DNA of 56,917 nucleotides from the NCBI GenBank assembly GCA_949282305.1, contig CASDPB010000085.1, positions 1 to 56,917 of the forward strand, given 5' to 3'. Made by a program: the position numbers and the translations under genes. Under the pieces are notes generated by a model, which saw nothing but the letters and a program-made list of their open reading frames with translations, had not been told where the DNA came from and did not search any database. The stretch is from an uncultured Lentisphaeria bacterium. GTDB lineage: Bacteria > Verrucomicrobiota > Lentisphaeria > Victivallales > UBA1829. Positions 308 to 46,253 of the stretch are shown piece after piece. Position 1 is the stretch's first letter. Each line of letters starts with the position of its first letter.

Positions 308-407
308 CAACTCTGAACTATTTCCGCTGTTTTCCGGATTTTTTTGAAATTTTTCGGATGCGCTCCCTTGTTTTCCGGATTTCCTGACTTATAGTGCGGA
401 AAGATTA

Positions 408-423
408 AGTTTGACGTTAAACT
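408..423. promoter_or_regulatory. LacI-type operator upstream of the first LacI gene
   Basis: AGTTTGACGTTAAACT is a 16-bp near-perfect palindrome (14 of 16 positions) centred on a CG step, the usual geometry of LacI-family operators. It ends 15 nt before the start codon at 439, so autoregulation of the regulator and its two downstream genes is likely. The binding protein is inferred. Confidence 0.6.
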
Positions 424-438
424 GAAATTGGATGACCT

Positions 439-1479
439 ATGAGAAGCACGATCAACGACGTGGCAAAAATGGCGGGTGTTTCCAGCATGTCCGTTTCGCT
501 GGCTTTCAAGGGAAGCACGAAAATCAGCAGGGCAACAAGGGAACGTATCTTCGAAATTGCGGAACGGCTGAACTATGTTCCGAATCAGGCGGCGCGGCAG
601 CTCCGCACCGGAAAGACGGACATCGTCGGTTTCATCGTGACCGATCTTGCCAACCCCTTCCACTCCATGATGATGAAACAGGCGGAAAATGCGTTTCACG
701 AAATGGGTCTGACTCTTTTCACCGGCGGCAGCAACTGGCAGGCGGAGAGGGAGACCGCATTTGCGGAACGTCTGATCCGGATGCAGGCGAGGGGCGTCCT
801 GATCTGTCCGTGCGAGAAGAATTTCGCCGCATTTGAACTGCTGGACAAGGCGGGAATCCCGTATGTGGCCCTGGACAGTGTGCCGGATTCCTATGCCGGG
901 CCGTATGTCGTCAATGATCTGGAACAGTGCGGCAGGCTGGTGGCGGAACATTTCCATCAGATCGGCTCCAGGAAGCCCGCTTATGTGGACGCGGCGCCGG
1001 ACATGCTCTATTTCAGTGCGTTTCAGAGAACGCGCAAGGCGTTTTTCCGCGGTCTGGAGGATTTCCGGTTGACCGTGGGGAACCGTTACGTTTCCGCTGG
1101 AATGACTCTGGAAGCCGGCGCGGAGGCTTTCCGGCGCATGGCTGTGCGCGGATTTGAGCCGGATGCGGTGTTCTGCGTCAATGATCTCTGCGCCCTGGGA
1201 TTCATGGACGAGGCGGGGCGGCATGGACTGCGCGCCGGGCGTGACTTTGCGCTTGCAGGAATCGACGATATGGAAATTTCCGCACTTTCGGCGCTTTCGC
1301 TGACCTCGGTCCGGCAGCCCTACCGGGACATCGCGCAGAAATCCGTCCAGCTGCTCTGCTCCCTGATGGACGGAAAAACACCGGAGAAGAGCCGTCTGAT
1401 GCTGCCGCAGGAATTGTGCGTGCGGGAGACGACACGGGGGTGCGCCCGGAGAAATGAAACGGCGCATTCCTTATATTAA
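439..1479 (+). CDS. LacI-family transcriptional regulator
   Basis: A 346-residue DNA-binding repressor or activator of the LacI/GalR family. The N-terminus (about residues 2-50) carries the helix-turn-helix and hinge: TINDVAKMAGVS, then VSLAFKG, then LNYVPNQAARQLRTGKT. The rest is a type-I periplasmic-binding-protein-like sensor domain (TDIVGFIVTDLANPF, FCVNDLCALGF, IDDMEISAL). The length is normal for the family. It heads a co-directional group with the M24-like enzyme and the amidohydrolase, and a palindromic operator lies just upstream. Its effector is probably a small sugar or a product of those enzymes, but this cannot be read from the sequence. Confidence 0.93.
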   Translation: MRSTINDVAKMAGVSSMSVSLAFKGSTKISRATRERIFEIAERLNYVPNQAARQLRTGKTDIVGFIVTDLANPFHSMMMKQAENAFHEMGLTLFTGGSNWQAERETAFAERLIRMQARGVLICPCEKNFAAFELLDKAGIPYVALDSVPDSYAGPYVVNDLEQCGRLVAEHFHQIGSRKPAYVDAAPDMLYFSAFQRTRKAFFRGLEDFRLTVGNRYVSAGMTLEAGAEAFRRMAVRGFEPDAVFCVNDLCALGFMDEAGRHGLRAGRDFALAGIDDMEISALSALSLTSVRQPYRDIAQKSVQLLCSLMDGKTPEKSRLMLPQELCVRETTRGCARRNETAHSLY

Positions 1480-42409: not shown

Positions 42410-44092
42410 TCAGCCTATCCTGTTCACGGCATTGACGAGAGCGCGGATTGCCGCAACGTTGATGCTGCGGTCGATTCCCGCACCGTAGACAGTCTCGTTC
42501 CCGTTGCCGGAGCGGATTCCTATGAATGCAATGGCATGTGCGTCGCTGCCGCGCCCGAGTGCGTGTTCCGTATAGGAATCAATCTGTATGGCGGGAAGCT
42601 CCGGGCATTGGGAGAACGCCGCGGCTGCTGCTTCGATCGGGCCTCCGCCGGTTCCGGCAATGCGGTGTTGTCTGCCGTTGATCCGGAGTTCCAGCCTGAC
42701 GTCCGTCCCCGGGTTGTCTTTTCCCGCCGGGCGGCGGATCCTTACGTCGAGGAGTTCCACATTTCCTTTTGCATTGGCGAATTCGCCCAGAAAGATGGAA
42801 TGGATTTTTTCCGCACTCAGTTCCCCGCCTTCCGCTTCCGCCTCCTTCTGCACCGCCTGCGCAACCGCTTTCTGCATTTCCTTCGGCAGCTGAATGCCGT
42901 AGACGTGCTCCAGAACGTAGGCGACGCCTCCTTTGCCGGACTGACTGTTGATGCGGATCAGTCCCTCGTAGCCGCGTCCGATGTCCGCAGGGTCGATGTG
43001 CAGGTAGGGGATCTTCCACCCCTGTCCAAAGTATTCGGATATTTCTTCCCGCTGTGCCATTCCTTTGCGGATTGCGTCCTGATGCGTTCCGGAAAATGCA
43101 GTGAAGACCAGTTCTCCCGCATAGGGGTGGCGCGGATGGAGCCTGATTTCCGAAACATCCTCCACAAACCTGACGATTTCAGGCAGATGCGAGAAATCCA
43201 GTCCCGTTTCGACGCCGCGTGACATCAGATTCAGTGCCGAGATGACGAGATCCATGTTTCCTGTTCGTTCACCATGTCCGCAGATTGTTCCCTCCACCCG
43301 TTCCGCGCCGGCCAGCATTGCCATTTCCGCGGCCGCGATCGCACAGCCCTGATCGTTGTGCGTGTGAATGCTCAGGGTTGTTTCAGCCATACCCGAATAT
43401 TTGCGGGTAAACAGCTCGATCATGTCCGCATATTGATTCGGCGGACGGCGTTCCACTGTCGCCGGCAGATTCAATATGAAGTTTTCCTTGCCCGGTTTGC
43501 CCCAGGCTTCGCGGACTTCCTCCGCCAGTTCGACGATATAGTCAAGACGGCTGTCGCTGAACTCCTCGGGAGAGAATTCATAGGCGCAGCGTTCATACAG
43601 GCCCGCTTTTTTCAAGGTCTCGACAACCATGCGGGTTCCGTCCACTGCCATCTTCCTGAGTTCGTCCGGACTCTTGTGAAAGACGAATTTCTGATGCAGG
43701 GGGCTTGTGGCGACGTAGCAATGCACGACCGCCTGCCTGACGCCGCGGATGGATTCCACGGTGCGTTCAATGAGGTCTCTGCGGGCTGCGGTGAAAACGA
43801 CGATGCGGACATCGTCCGGAATTAATTTTTCCTCAATCAGACGGCGGACCAGTTCAAATTCCTCGCTTGAGGCTGCGGGGTAGCTGACCTCGATCTCTTT
43901 GTAACCGATCCCGGTGAGCATCTTGAAATAGCGGATTTTCTCCTCGACGTTCATCGGCTTTGCGAACGCCTGGTTTCCGTCCCGCAGATCGACTGGCACC
44001 CAGACCGGGGCTTTTTCAATGACGCGCGCGGGCCATTGCCTGTTTTCCATTTCGATTTTCTGCGGCTGTTTGTACTTCGGTTTTTCTTTCAT
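42410..44092 (-). CDS. leuA: 2-isopropylmalate synthase
   Basis: A 560-residue enzyme that condenses acetyl-CoA with 2-ketoisovalerate, the first committed step of leucine synthesis. It is of the longer LeuA type: barrel start VPVDLRDGNQAF (metal and catalytic residues), HTHNDQGCAIAAAEMA, EGTICGHGERTGN, a linker, then the C-terminal allosteric domain (GTGGGPIEAAAAAF, DAHAIAFIGI). GGAG lies 7 nt before the ATG. It stands alone here, with leuBCD elsewhere, behind a leader carrying a Leu-rich peptide that suggests control by leucine supply. Confidence 0.95.
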   Translation of the reverse strand: MKEKPKYKQPQKIEMENRQWPARVIEKAPVWVPVDLRDGNQAFAKPMNVEEKIRYFKMLTGIGYKEIEVSYPAASSEEFELVRRLIEEKLIPDDVRIVVFTAARRDLIERTVESIRGVRQAVVHCYVATSPLHQKFVFHKSPDELRKMAVDGTRMVVETLKKAGLYERCAYEFSPEEFSDSRLDYIVELAEEVREAWGKPGKENFILNLPATVERRPPNQYADMIELFTRKYSGMAETTLSIHTHNDQGCAIAAAEMAMLAGAERVEGTICGHGERTGNMDLVISALNLMSRGVETGLDFSHLPEIVRFVEDVSEIRLHPRHPYAGELVFTAFSGTHQDAIRKGMAQREEISEYFGQGWKIPYLHIDPADIGRGYEGLIRINSQSGKGGVAYVLEHVYGIQLPKEMQKAVAQAVQKEAEAEGGELSAEKIHSIFLGEFANAKGNVELLDVRIRRPAGKDNPGTDVRLELRINGRQHRIAGTGGGPIEAAAAAFSQCPELPAIQIDSYTEHALGRGSDAHAIAFIGIRSGNGNETVYGAGIDRSINVAAIRALVNAVNRIG

Positions 44093-44262
44093 TCGTCATC
44101 TCCATTGGTTGATGTTGAGTTCAGTAGACAGATATGGAGACTCTTCAGAAACAGAGCGGAACCGGCAGTCGAATCGGCGCGATGATGCTGAGGAGTCTCA
44201 GTGCCGAACCGGCTTGACCGGACGATTCAATGTGTGCGGAAAAGAATACGCTCGACCGTTGC
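44093..44262 (-). promoter_or_regulatory. Structured leuA leader RNA
   Basis: Between the leader peptide and leuA, CCGGCTTGA, which includes the peptide stop, can pair with TCAAGCCGG. Flanking GCCG/CGGC extends this to 13 of 15 pairs. Further downstream GAGACTC and GAGTCTC form another possible helix. A stalled ribosome on the peptide would block the first helix. No clear U-run is seen, so translational control or a weak attenuator are both possible. Confidence 0.5.
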
Positions 44263-44370
44263 TCAAGCCGGAACGGCATTGGTAAGTCGAAGCAGGCAGG
44301 AAAGCAGAAACAGACATACGGGCAGAGGATGTCCGCTGAAATTCCGGTTTTTGTCTTTTGATCGGTTCAT
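44263..44370 (-). CDS. Leu-rich leader peptide upstream of leuA
   Basis: A 35-residue open reading frame, ATG at 44370, with AGGA 9 nt before it. Between residues 16 and 29 the sequence LPVCLFLLSCLLRL contains seven Leu. Its stop codon lies inside a long-range helix of the leader RNA. Position, composition and structure fit an amino-acid attenuation peptide for leuA. A chance hydrophobic ORF cannot be excluded. Confidence 0.55.
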   Translation of the reverse strand: MNRSKDKNRNFSGHPLPVCLFLLSCLLRLTNAVPA

Positions 44371-44398
44371 GACTGCTTTCCTGTTTGTTGGTTATAAT

Positions 44399-44427
44399 AA
44401 AATATCCCGCTTTCGGAAAGAAAGCAA
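44399..44427 (-). promoter_or_regulatory. Promoter of the leuA leader
   Basis: Minus-strand TTGCTT (44422-44427), a 17-nt spacer and TATTTT (44399-44404), with an AT-rich TATTATAAC just after. The start of transcription would fall shortly before the leader-peptide ribosome site. Confidence 0.5.
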
Positions 44428-44643: not shown

Positions 44644-44820
44644 ATGAATGAGAAGGCAGAAAAAGATGTGACGCAGGAAAACAACAGCTGGCTGAAATTC
44701 CTGACTTTGGCGGCAATGTTCGTCGGTTCAAATTCCACCGTCATGGGAATGGGGGCGGATGACTGGATCGGCATGGTGAACGGACAGTCCAACCTGGGAG
44801 TTGGCGGGGGGAGGTTCTGA
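44644..44820 (+). CDS. 58-residue protein resembling the glycosyltransferase N-terminus
   Basis: A small protein with AAGGAG about 7 nt before the ATG. Residues 15-50 (SWLKFLTLAAMFVGSNSTVMG...) align with the first membrane segment of the next gene (AWLKYLTLATLIIGSLAAVIG...): W-L-K-aromatic-L-T-L-A, then I/V-G-S, then V-x-G-M. It has one moderately hydrophobic helix and a Gly-rich tail (NLGVGGGRF). Two nt separate its stop from the next start, so the two are coupled. It probably binds or regulates the transferase, or arose by partial duplication. No known family recognised. Confidence 0.7.
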   Translation: MNEKAEKDVTQENNSWLKFLTLAAMFVGSNSTVMGMGADDWIGMVNGQSNLGVGGGRF

Positions 44821-44822
44821 GG

Positions 44823-46253
44823 ATGGCAAAGAGGGAGGAACAAAGTGAGTCCGGTGCGTGGCTGAAGTATTTGACGCTTGCCACGCTGATTATCGGTTCT
44901 CTGGCGGCAGTTATCGGAATGAGTGGGGCCGAGCTGATTGCCGTTCTGAACAGCCAGTGGGTTCCGAAAGGATTTCTGGGATTTCTGGTTTTCTTCGGAG
45001 TGCTCTACAATCTGCTGACCGTGATTCTCGGCACGATCTGTTATCGTGAAAAGCCGATTCTGCCGGATGACCGGCTGCCGTCATGCACTGTCATTGTCCC
45101 GGCTTATAATGAAGGCGAAGCTGTGATGATTGCGCTGAACAGCATTCTGGCAAGCAACTATCCCGCGGAGAAACTGGAAATCATCGCGATTGACGACGGC
45201 AGCAGGGACGATACGTGGAAATGGATCGCCCAGGCCGCCGCCGCTTCCAACGGACGCATCCGCGGCGTCAAGCTGGAGCAGAACCGCGGAAAGCGGCATG
45301 CAATCCAGTACGGCACGAAAATGTCGAAAATGGATGTCATCATTACGGTTGACAGCGATTCCGTTGTGGAGGCTGATTCGATCAGGCGCCTGACCAGCCC
45401 CTTCGCCGATCCGAGAGTCGGTGCAGTTGCCGGTTCCGTTCAGGTATCCAATCTTTCCGACGGCGTCCTGCCGCGCATGATGGATGCCCATTATGCGTTC
45501 AGCTGCCGCATTCTCCGCGCCGCAAACAGCGTGATGCGCACCGTGGTCTGCACTCCGGGCGCGTTGAGCGCCTACCGGCGTTCGGCATTGATGGAGTTTC
45601 TGGACCGCTGGGCAAACCAGACTTTCTGCGGGCGTCCCGCCGGAATCGGGGAAGACCGCGCATTGACGACGTTCATGCTGCGCCACAAATGGCATGTCCT
45701 GTATCAGCGCAGTGCCGTAGTTCATACGGAAATGCCGTCGACCTATCAGGGGACTTACCGGATGATGCTTCGCTGGGAGCGGGGGAACATCCGCGAAATG
45801 CTTTCCACCTATGAGTTCGCATTCCGCCGTTTCGACTGGTTCCATCTTGCCATTCAGCTGAATCTGGTGTTCCAGACTTATCTTTTCATCCAGTCGGTAT
45901 TTTTCATGCCGCTTGTGATTCTCGGCATGCTTGCCGCACCTGTTTTCTGGTGGCAGTGCATGTTCCTTTCCACGATTCTCTGGACGGCTCTTCCCGCCTT
46001 GTGCTATTATCTCATGAGCGGAGGAACCGGATGGATCTGGACTTTCACCTACACGTTTTTCCGGACGTTCTTTCTGTTCTGGATCTCGCCGTACAGTCTG
46101 TTCACTGTGCAGAATTCTGGCTGGCTGACCCGCGGCAAGGCGGAAGAGGAGAAGAAGGCAAAACTGGAAGCCGCCAGATCTCTTGCCGGAAATGTATTTG
46201 CCGAAGACGTTGCGGGGCGGCAGGCTCCTGCGGCGCGTTTCTACTTCAAATAA
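44823..46253 (+). CDS. Membrane glycosyltransferase, family 2 (processive type)
   Basis: A 476-residue integral-membrane GT2 of the chitin/hyaluronan/poly-GlcNAc synthase kind. Two N-terminal helices (about 20-40 and 52-72), then the catalytic domain: VIVPAYNEGEAV, IDDGSRDDTW, DSDS, GEDRALTTF as the base region and MLRWERGNI at the QxxRW position (Q replaced). Four C-terminal helices form the channel-like part. It likely makes and exports a beta-linked exopolysaccharide. Only the small upstream protein is co-transcribed; no export or modification genes adjoin. A terminator follows. Confidence 0.88.
   Translation: MAKREEQSESGAWLKYLTLATLIIGSLAAVIGMSGAELIAVLNSQWVPKGFLGFLVFFGVLYNLLTVILGTICYREKPILPDDRLPSCTVIVPAYNEGEAVMIALNSILASNYPAEKLEIIAIDDGSRDDTWKWIAQAAAASNGRIRGVKLEQNRGKRHAIQYGTKMSKMDVIITVDSDSVVEADSIRRLTSPFADPRVGAVAGSVQVSNLSDGVLPRMMDAHYAFSCRILRAANSVMRTVVCTPGALSAYRRSALMEFLDRWANQTFCGRPAGIGEDRALTTFMLRHKWHVLYQRSAVVHTEMPSTYQGTYRMMLRWERGNIREMLSTYEFAFRRFDWFHLAIQLNLVFQTYLFIQSVFFMPLVILGMLAAPVFWWQCMFLSTILWTALPALCYYLMSGGTGWIWTFTYTFFRTFFLFWISPYSLFTVQNSGWLTRGKAEEEKKAKLEAARSLAGNVFAEDVAGRQAPAARFYFK

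Follow-up and report, generated by a model that had tools for sequence, protein, structure and literature searches.

A predicted leucine-responsive attenuator upstream of leuA in Victivallales and a second type of leuA leader in deeper Lentisphaeria

Introduction

Do bacteria of the order Victivallales control leuA through a ribosome that senses leucine? Attenuation of this kind is best documented in Proteobacteria and Actinobacteria. A survey from 2013 proposed that amino-acid attenuators may have originated in the gamma-proteobacteria and that very few transfers took place (PMC3766115). The question is raised by a contig from an uncultured Lentisphaeria bacterium (CASDPB010000085.1; the whole stretch of 56,917 nt is called the window here), in which a sequence-only reading had proposed leucine-responsive attenuation of leuA outside the Proteobacteria. 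Comparison with named relatives places the source genome in the Victivallales. Comparative sequence evidence now supports that proposal well. The leader ORF, its Leu codons and two competing structures were found in 13 of 13 orthologs, and deeper lineages of the class have leuA leaders of their own, several of them with a terminator. We predict, with a probability of roughly 80%, that the leuA leader functions as a ribosome-mediated, leucine-responsive attenuator, and this Victivallales group very probably controls leuA via a leucine-sensing ribosome. How the switch acts on leuA is less clear-cut, and several outputs are weighed below.

The leuA gene and its leader ORF

The gene downstream of the leader (42410–44092, minus strand, as are all features below unless stated) encodes a protein of 560 aa with HMGL-like, IPMS_D2 and LeuA_dimer domains. 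Its product scored 682.7 bits against NF002991 (cut-off 455), which identifies this gene as leuA, encoding 2-isopropylmalate synthase. The ribosome site of leuA is GGAG at 44100–44103. A second LeuA copy in the source genome is 55% identical to the first, and no Leu-rich leader peptide was detected upstream of it. No recognisable leucine genes adjoin either copy in the regions read.

A 35-codon ORF (44263–44370), preceded by the ribosome site AGGA (44379–44382), encodes MNRSKDKNRNFSGHPLPVCLFLLSCLLRLTNAVPA followed by a stop codon. The seven Leu in 14 residues noted in the sequence-only reading are present and fall in LPVCLFLLSCLLRL, and when the leader was dinucleotide-shuffled, 0.13% of the shuffles had an ATG-started ORF with at least seven Leu per 14 residues. 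Near the end of the ORF is CGACTTA (44283–44289), which consists of the rare Arg codon CGA, the Leu codon CTT and one further base, and which is invariant in 13/13 orthologs. CGA accounts for two of the 141 Arg codons in five window genes. The peptide core LLRL is found at the end of the ORF in all 13 orthologs, as LLRLT in 12 and as LLRLI in Victivallis vadensis. Thus, judged by sequence, the leader ORF has what attenuators have, a short ORF with many codons for the end-product amino acid, in 13/13 orthologs and rarely in shuffles. We also considered a signal peptide or a small protein, and rejected this reading since conservation is limited to the C-terminal core and there is no Pfam match.

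A promoter-like site, TTGCTT-N17-TATTTT, was found by consensus scan at 44399–44427, and we infer from it that transcription of the leader starts near 44392. By the consensus scan, the best site in each of the 13 orthologs is an equivalent one, whose end is 25–47 nt before the leader ATG. A 10-of-12 promoter-like site in the opposite orientation (44369–44398, plus strand), directed at a divergent glycosyltransferase gene, overlaps the beginning of the leader ORF; the chance expectation of the scan is 0.8 such sites. This gene (44823–46253, plus strand; MAKREEQSESGAWLKYLTLATLIIGSLAAVIGMS...) is NodC/chitin-synthase-like and directly follows a 58-aa ORF (44644–44820, plus strand; MNEKAEKDVTQENNSWLKFLTLAAMFVGSNSTVMGMG...) that resembles the N-terminus of its product, as if the start of the glycosyltransferase gene had been partly duplicated in tandem.

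Distribution among the Victivallales

A covariance model of the window-type leader was built from eight leaders and searched in 137 genomes of the order Victivallales. It matched 13 genomes at E<1e-6 (G000, G019, G020, G024, G026, G038, G052, G057, G125, G126 and G132–G134), and all 13 matches are directly upstream of an orthologous leuA (protein 62–100% identical). Five of the 13 matched leaders had not been used in building the model. G052 is the genome of a cultured organism, Victivallis vadensis DSM 14823. At E 5e-4 to 0.1 there were weaker matches, some of which fall on the opposite strand of this element, which is nearly palindromic.

The leader-bearing leuA copy is patchy within genera; of the four genomes in the window's genus, one has it. 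Every genome with this copy also has a second LeuA copy, for which no Leu-rich leader was seen. One possibility is that the attenuator-bearing leuA is a paralog that moves between genomes, or is often lost, together with its leader.

Other leuA genes in the order (L156, L163, L169, L176, L173–L175 and L181) have Leu-rich leader ORFs whose core differs, LRL(R/C)G, together with a GC-rich hairpin in the corresponding position. None of these leaders matched the window-type model.

RNA structures of the leader

Folding of the minus-strand leader gave z = -2.69, a stability that no shuffle out of 100 matched. The stop codon pairs as the sequence-only reading described, within a long-range helix in which GCCGTTCCGGCTTGA (44263–44277) and TCAAGCCGGTTCGGC (44203–44217) are paired at 13 of 15 positions. 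In the ortholog alignment, the 5' arm of this helix, 2:3, covers 44263–44281 and holds the leader stop codon, while its 3' arm (segment 3) covers 44199–44217. In the 13 leaders, aligned by fitting to that same helix, 78.9% of the cells are paired, compared to 26–44% when the partner strand was slid. Changes on both sides were found in nine pairs and 19 cells, counts that are not independent since the 13 genomes were drawn from few genera; none of 500 shuffles reached 19 cells and two reached the paired fraction. The comparison of leuA upstream regions proposed with the earlier reading thus found both the Leu-rich ORF and the helix kept in 13/13 orthologs, with two-sided changes in the helix.

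That reading had missed a competing hairpin, 1:2, and the U-rich tail behind it. The hairpin (44250–44293) takes in the end of the ORF from the final Leu codons onwards, with CGACTTA in its 5' arm and the stop codon in its 3' arm. Predictions for all 13 orthologs put it in the same position. With alignment gaps placed by hand, 87% of its cells are paired, compared to 19–44% in slid controls. In V. vadensis the 3' arm has diverged to the point of losing the usual stop codon, and the hairpin is nevertheless kept. Hairpin 1:2 and helix 2:3 use the same bases and are thus mutually exclusive, and each is conserved in the 13 orthologs. As in attenuators, the two exclusive structures overlap the regulatory codons.

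A weakly supported candidate hairpin 3:4 (44160–44214) lies further downstream. Its duplex z is -1.7 in the window; five relatives range from -1.6 to -3.2, and others are near zero.

In six loci (L005, L007, L008, L111, L112 and L113) there is a possible third helix about 40–100 nt before leuA, for example GATTTTGT...ACAAAATC, GCTTTGCA...TGCAAAGT and GCTTCGA...TCGAAGC; it was seen by eye and in part of the set only. It flanks a conserved CGTCTTT that has a complement, AAGACG, directly behind the stop codon of the leader ORF, a possible pseudoknot. Complementarity of this pseudoknot-like kind, between a loop and downstream sequence, occurs in several leaders and is near chance in each one.

Proposed switch and its output

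In the attenuation that we propose, transcription would start at the promoter-like site, just upstream of the 35-codon leader ORF. When Leu-tRNA is short, the ribosome would halt at the conserved Leu-Leu-Arg(CGA)-Leu codons and cover the 5' arm of hairpin 1:2, so that segment 2 would be free to pair with segment 3; formation of helix 2:3 would then favour leuA expression. When leucine is sufficient, the ribosome would reach the stop codon inside segment 2 and prevent helix 2:3, and segment 3 or the re-formed hairpin would block leuA expression. By estimated geometry, with the A-site on the Leu-Leu codons, the leading edge of the ribosome would be at the boundary of segment 2. A ribosome at the Leu-Leu codons would block 1:2 and leave 2:3 free, and one at the stop codon would block both.

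The sequence-only reading had found no obvious U-run terminator and suggested that the mechanism may be translational. The first statement stands for hairpin 3:4, which is not followed by a U-run in any of the 13 window-type orthologs. It needs to be amended for hairpin 1:2, behind which there is a U-rich tract, TATTCTTTT (44240–44248), possibly a weak terminator or pause site. Hairpin 1:2 with this tract was the best terminator-like site of the leader in one scan; it failed a stricter terminator scan and was not listed by a generic one.

In the window's family, hairpin 1:2, which overlaps the end of the leader ORF, might itself be the terminator, blocked by a ribosome halted on the Leu codons and re-forming after the ribosome is released at the stop codon. 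A hairpin 1:2 with a U-rich tail is the best terminator-like site not only in the window but also in three g10 genomes, and leader ORFs overlap terminator hairpins in actinobacterial ilvB leaders (PMC1262725). However, the tail is missing in most Victivallis leaders, and the one in the window did not pass the stricter scan. Moreover, such a terminator would leave the covarying helix 2:3 without a function; the 3' arm of this helix is transcribed later than the tract. We regard this reading as unlikely.

Could the output be translational instead, with the leader ribosome sensing leucine and the structures opening or closing the leuA ribosome site without any termination of transcription? The missing U-run after 3:4 in all 13 orthologs is in keeping with this, and the actinobacterial LEU element offers a precedent without a terminator (PMC1262725). 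Each leader was folded with a ribosome mask at the Leu codons and with one at the stop codon. The opening energies at first looked consistent with sequestration of the Shine-Dalgarno (SD) sequence, but shuffled downstream parts gave the same shift, and this switch was rejected. As the mean of 13 leaders, the leuA start site opened more easily by 0.88 kcal/mol in the Leu-stall than with the ribosome at the stop codon, compared to 0.74 +/- 0.40 kcal/mol with shuffled downstream parts, and the suggested translational mechanism was not borne out. In some leaders, G057 and G026, the predicted opening of the start site in the Leu-stall is easier than in almost every shuffle, which speaks for this output there. 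Pairing of the Leu codons with the SD is at chance (mean z -0.28), and several deeper relatives have U-run terminators, both of which argue against it. On balance, translational attenuation is a minority possibility, though a better one than termination at 1:2. We lean slightly towards control at the level of transcription, by read-through of a terminator that is non-canonical or assisted by a factor, because the deeper relatives carry real terminators.

leuA leaders in deeper Lentisphaeria

A wider survey covered 124 distinct leuA upstream regions, which were scanned for Leu-rich ORFs and terminator-like hairpins. The threshold for a Leu-rich ORF was passed by 29 regions (6% in shuffles), and 22 had a terminator-like hairpin (3.5% in shuffles by the same scan). 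Both features were found in 11 regions. Two of the 11 are of the window type, and the hairpin called there lies upstream of the Leu codons. In the other nine the hairpin is behind the ORF; one of these, L074, is labelled Phycisphaerae.

The motif CGACTTA was found in 22 of 111 upstream regions that are not of the window type, compared to 1.6 expected from shuffles, and a few of these occurrences are inside an upstream gene. Of the 19 cases located in the leader range, 15 have a short ORF that runs across the motif in the CGA frame, compared to one and four in the other two frames. Six CGACTTA leaders (L059, L062, L064, L184, L186 and L187) have a terminator-like hairpin behind the ORF.

These observations bear on a further alternative, that a structured RNA binding a protein or ligand regulates leuA and that the ORF is incidental. 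CGACTTA and a second motif, GCGCCG, are kept even at third codon positions in the window-type orthologs, which would fit such an RNA, and a protein partner has been proposed for the actinobacterial LEU element (PMC1262725). However, the preserved frame across CGACTTA in deeper relatives, the Leu codons exactly at the base of the switch, and the lack of any match in Rfam, T-box included, speak against it, and we consider it improbable.

Common to the deeper lineages is CGACTTAGnnnCCTGCA...GGTTGC, with the core CCTGCA...GGTTGC; several of them continue with ...GGTTGCAGGC and a U-run. As read from the sequence, this series of elements is the anatomy of a classical attenuator. Other high-GC families have a hairpin without a U-run. 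A model of this second leader type, R2, matched 13 of 198 genomes of the class, all upstream of leuA, and two of these are absent from the model. A 17-base pattern, CGACTTAGNNNCCTGCA, had four matches in 388 genomes of the phylum, three of them upstream of leuA; the fourth (L213, from another class) is without a LeuA match in 3 kb. Near one leuA locus, L185, there is an FMN riboswitch (347–471, minus strand; Rfam RF00050, 108.5 bits).

R2 had no match in the window's order at E 0.01. Against the window-type loci it gave nine weak matches (E 0.12–0.99), five of which begin at the CGACTTA site. Since there is no match at E 0.01 and only weak ones at that site, we go no further than to infer common descent of the two leader types. 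It is conceivable, though somewhat doubtful, that Lentisphaeria have their own lineage of leuA leucine attenuators built around an in-frame CGACTTA, and that the window's order rebuilt it without the U-run after 3:4, the switch acting instead by factor-dependent termination, by translation or by way of a pseudoknot.

Conserved leucine leaders of leuA in Lentisphaeria, including the cultured V. vadensis, argue for an older or an independent use of this device. They also provide a series in which leaders with a canonical terminator can be compared with leaders that lack it, and on which the output step could be tested.

Comparison with known systems

The window leader matched no Rfam family, RF00512 and T-box included, either at the gathering threshold or when matches with E up to 5 were admitted, and a search of 16 related loci gave no family for the leader and only the FMN riboswitch. 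In the open-access literature we found no attenuators in Lentisphaerae, Planctomycetes or Verrucomicrobia, and no published family that matches the leuA leaders of deeper Lentisphaeria.

The trp, his and leu attenuators of Proteobacteria (RF00512 for leu) resemble the window leader in having a short ORF with codons for the end product and mutually exclusive 1:2 and 2:3 structures upstream of a biosynthetic gene. By analogy, the 1:2 and 2:3 arrangement is the logic of trp-type attenuators, in which a ribosome stalled on the Arg codon behind the Trp codons likewise keeps 1:2 from forming (PMC1183508). Unlike them, the window leader has its stop codon inside the segment shared by 1:2 and 2:3, and its hairpin 3:4 is not followed by a canonical U-run terminator.

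The actinobacterial LEU element (PMC1262725) also has a Leu-rich ORF upstream of leuA and a conserved RNA structure, and like the window leader it has no obvious terminator. However, its defining base stem, between the Leu codons and the leuA SD, is not supported in the 13 window-type leaders, where such pairing does not exceed chance. For the conserved pseudoknot of the LEU element, the possible counterpart is the loop-to-downstream complementarity, seen in several leaders and near chance in each.

The R2 leaders of deeper Lentisphaeria share with the window type the gene, the position and CGACTTA in the same frame, and they differ from it in the core CCTGCA...GGTTGC and in the U-run terminator that several of them carry.
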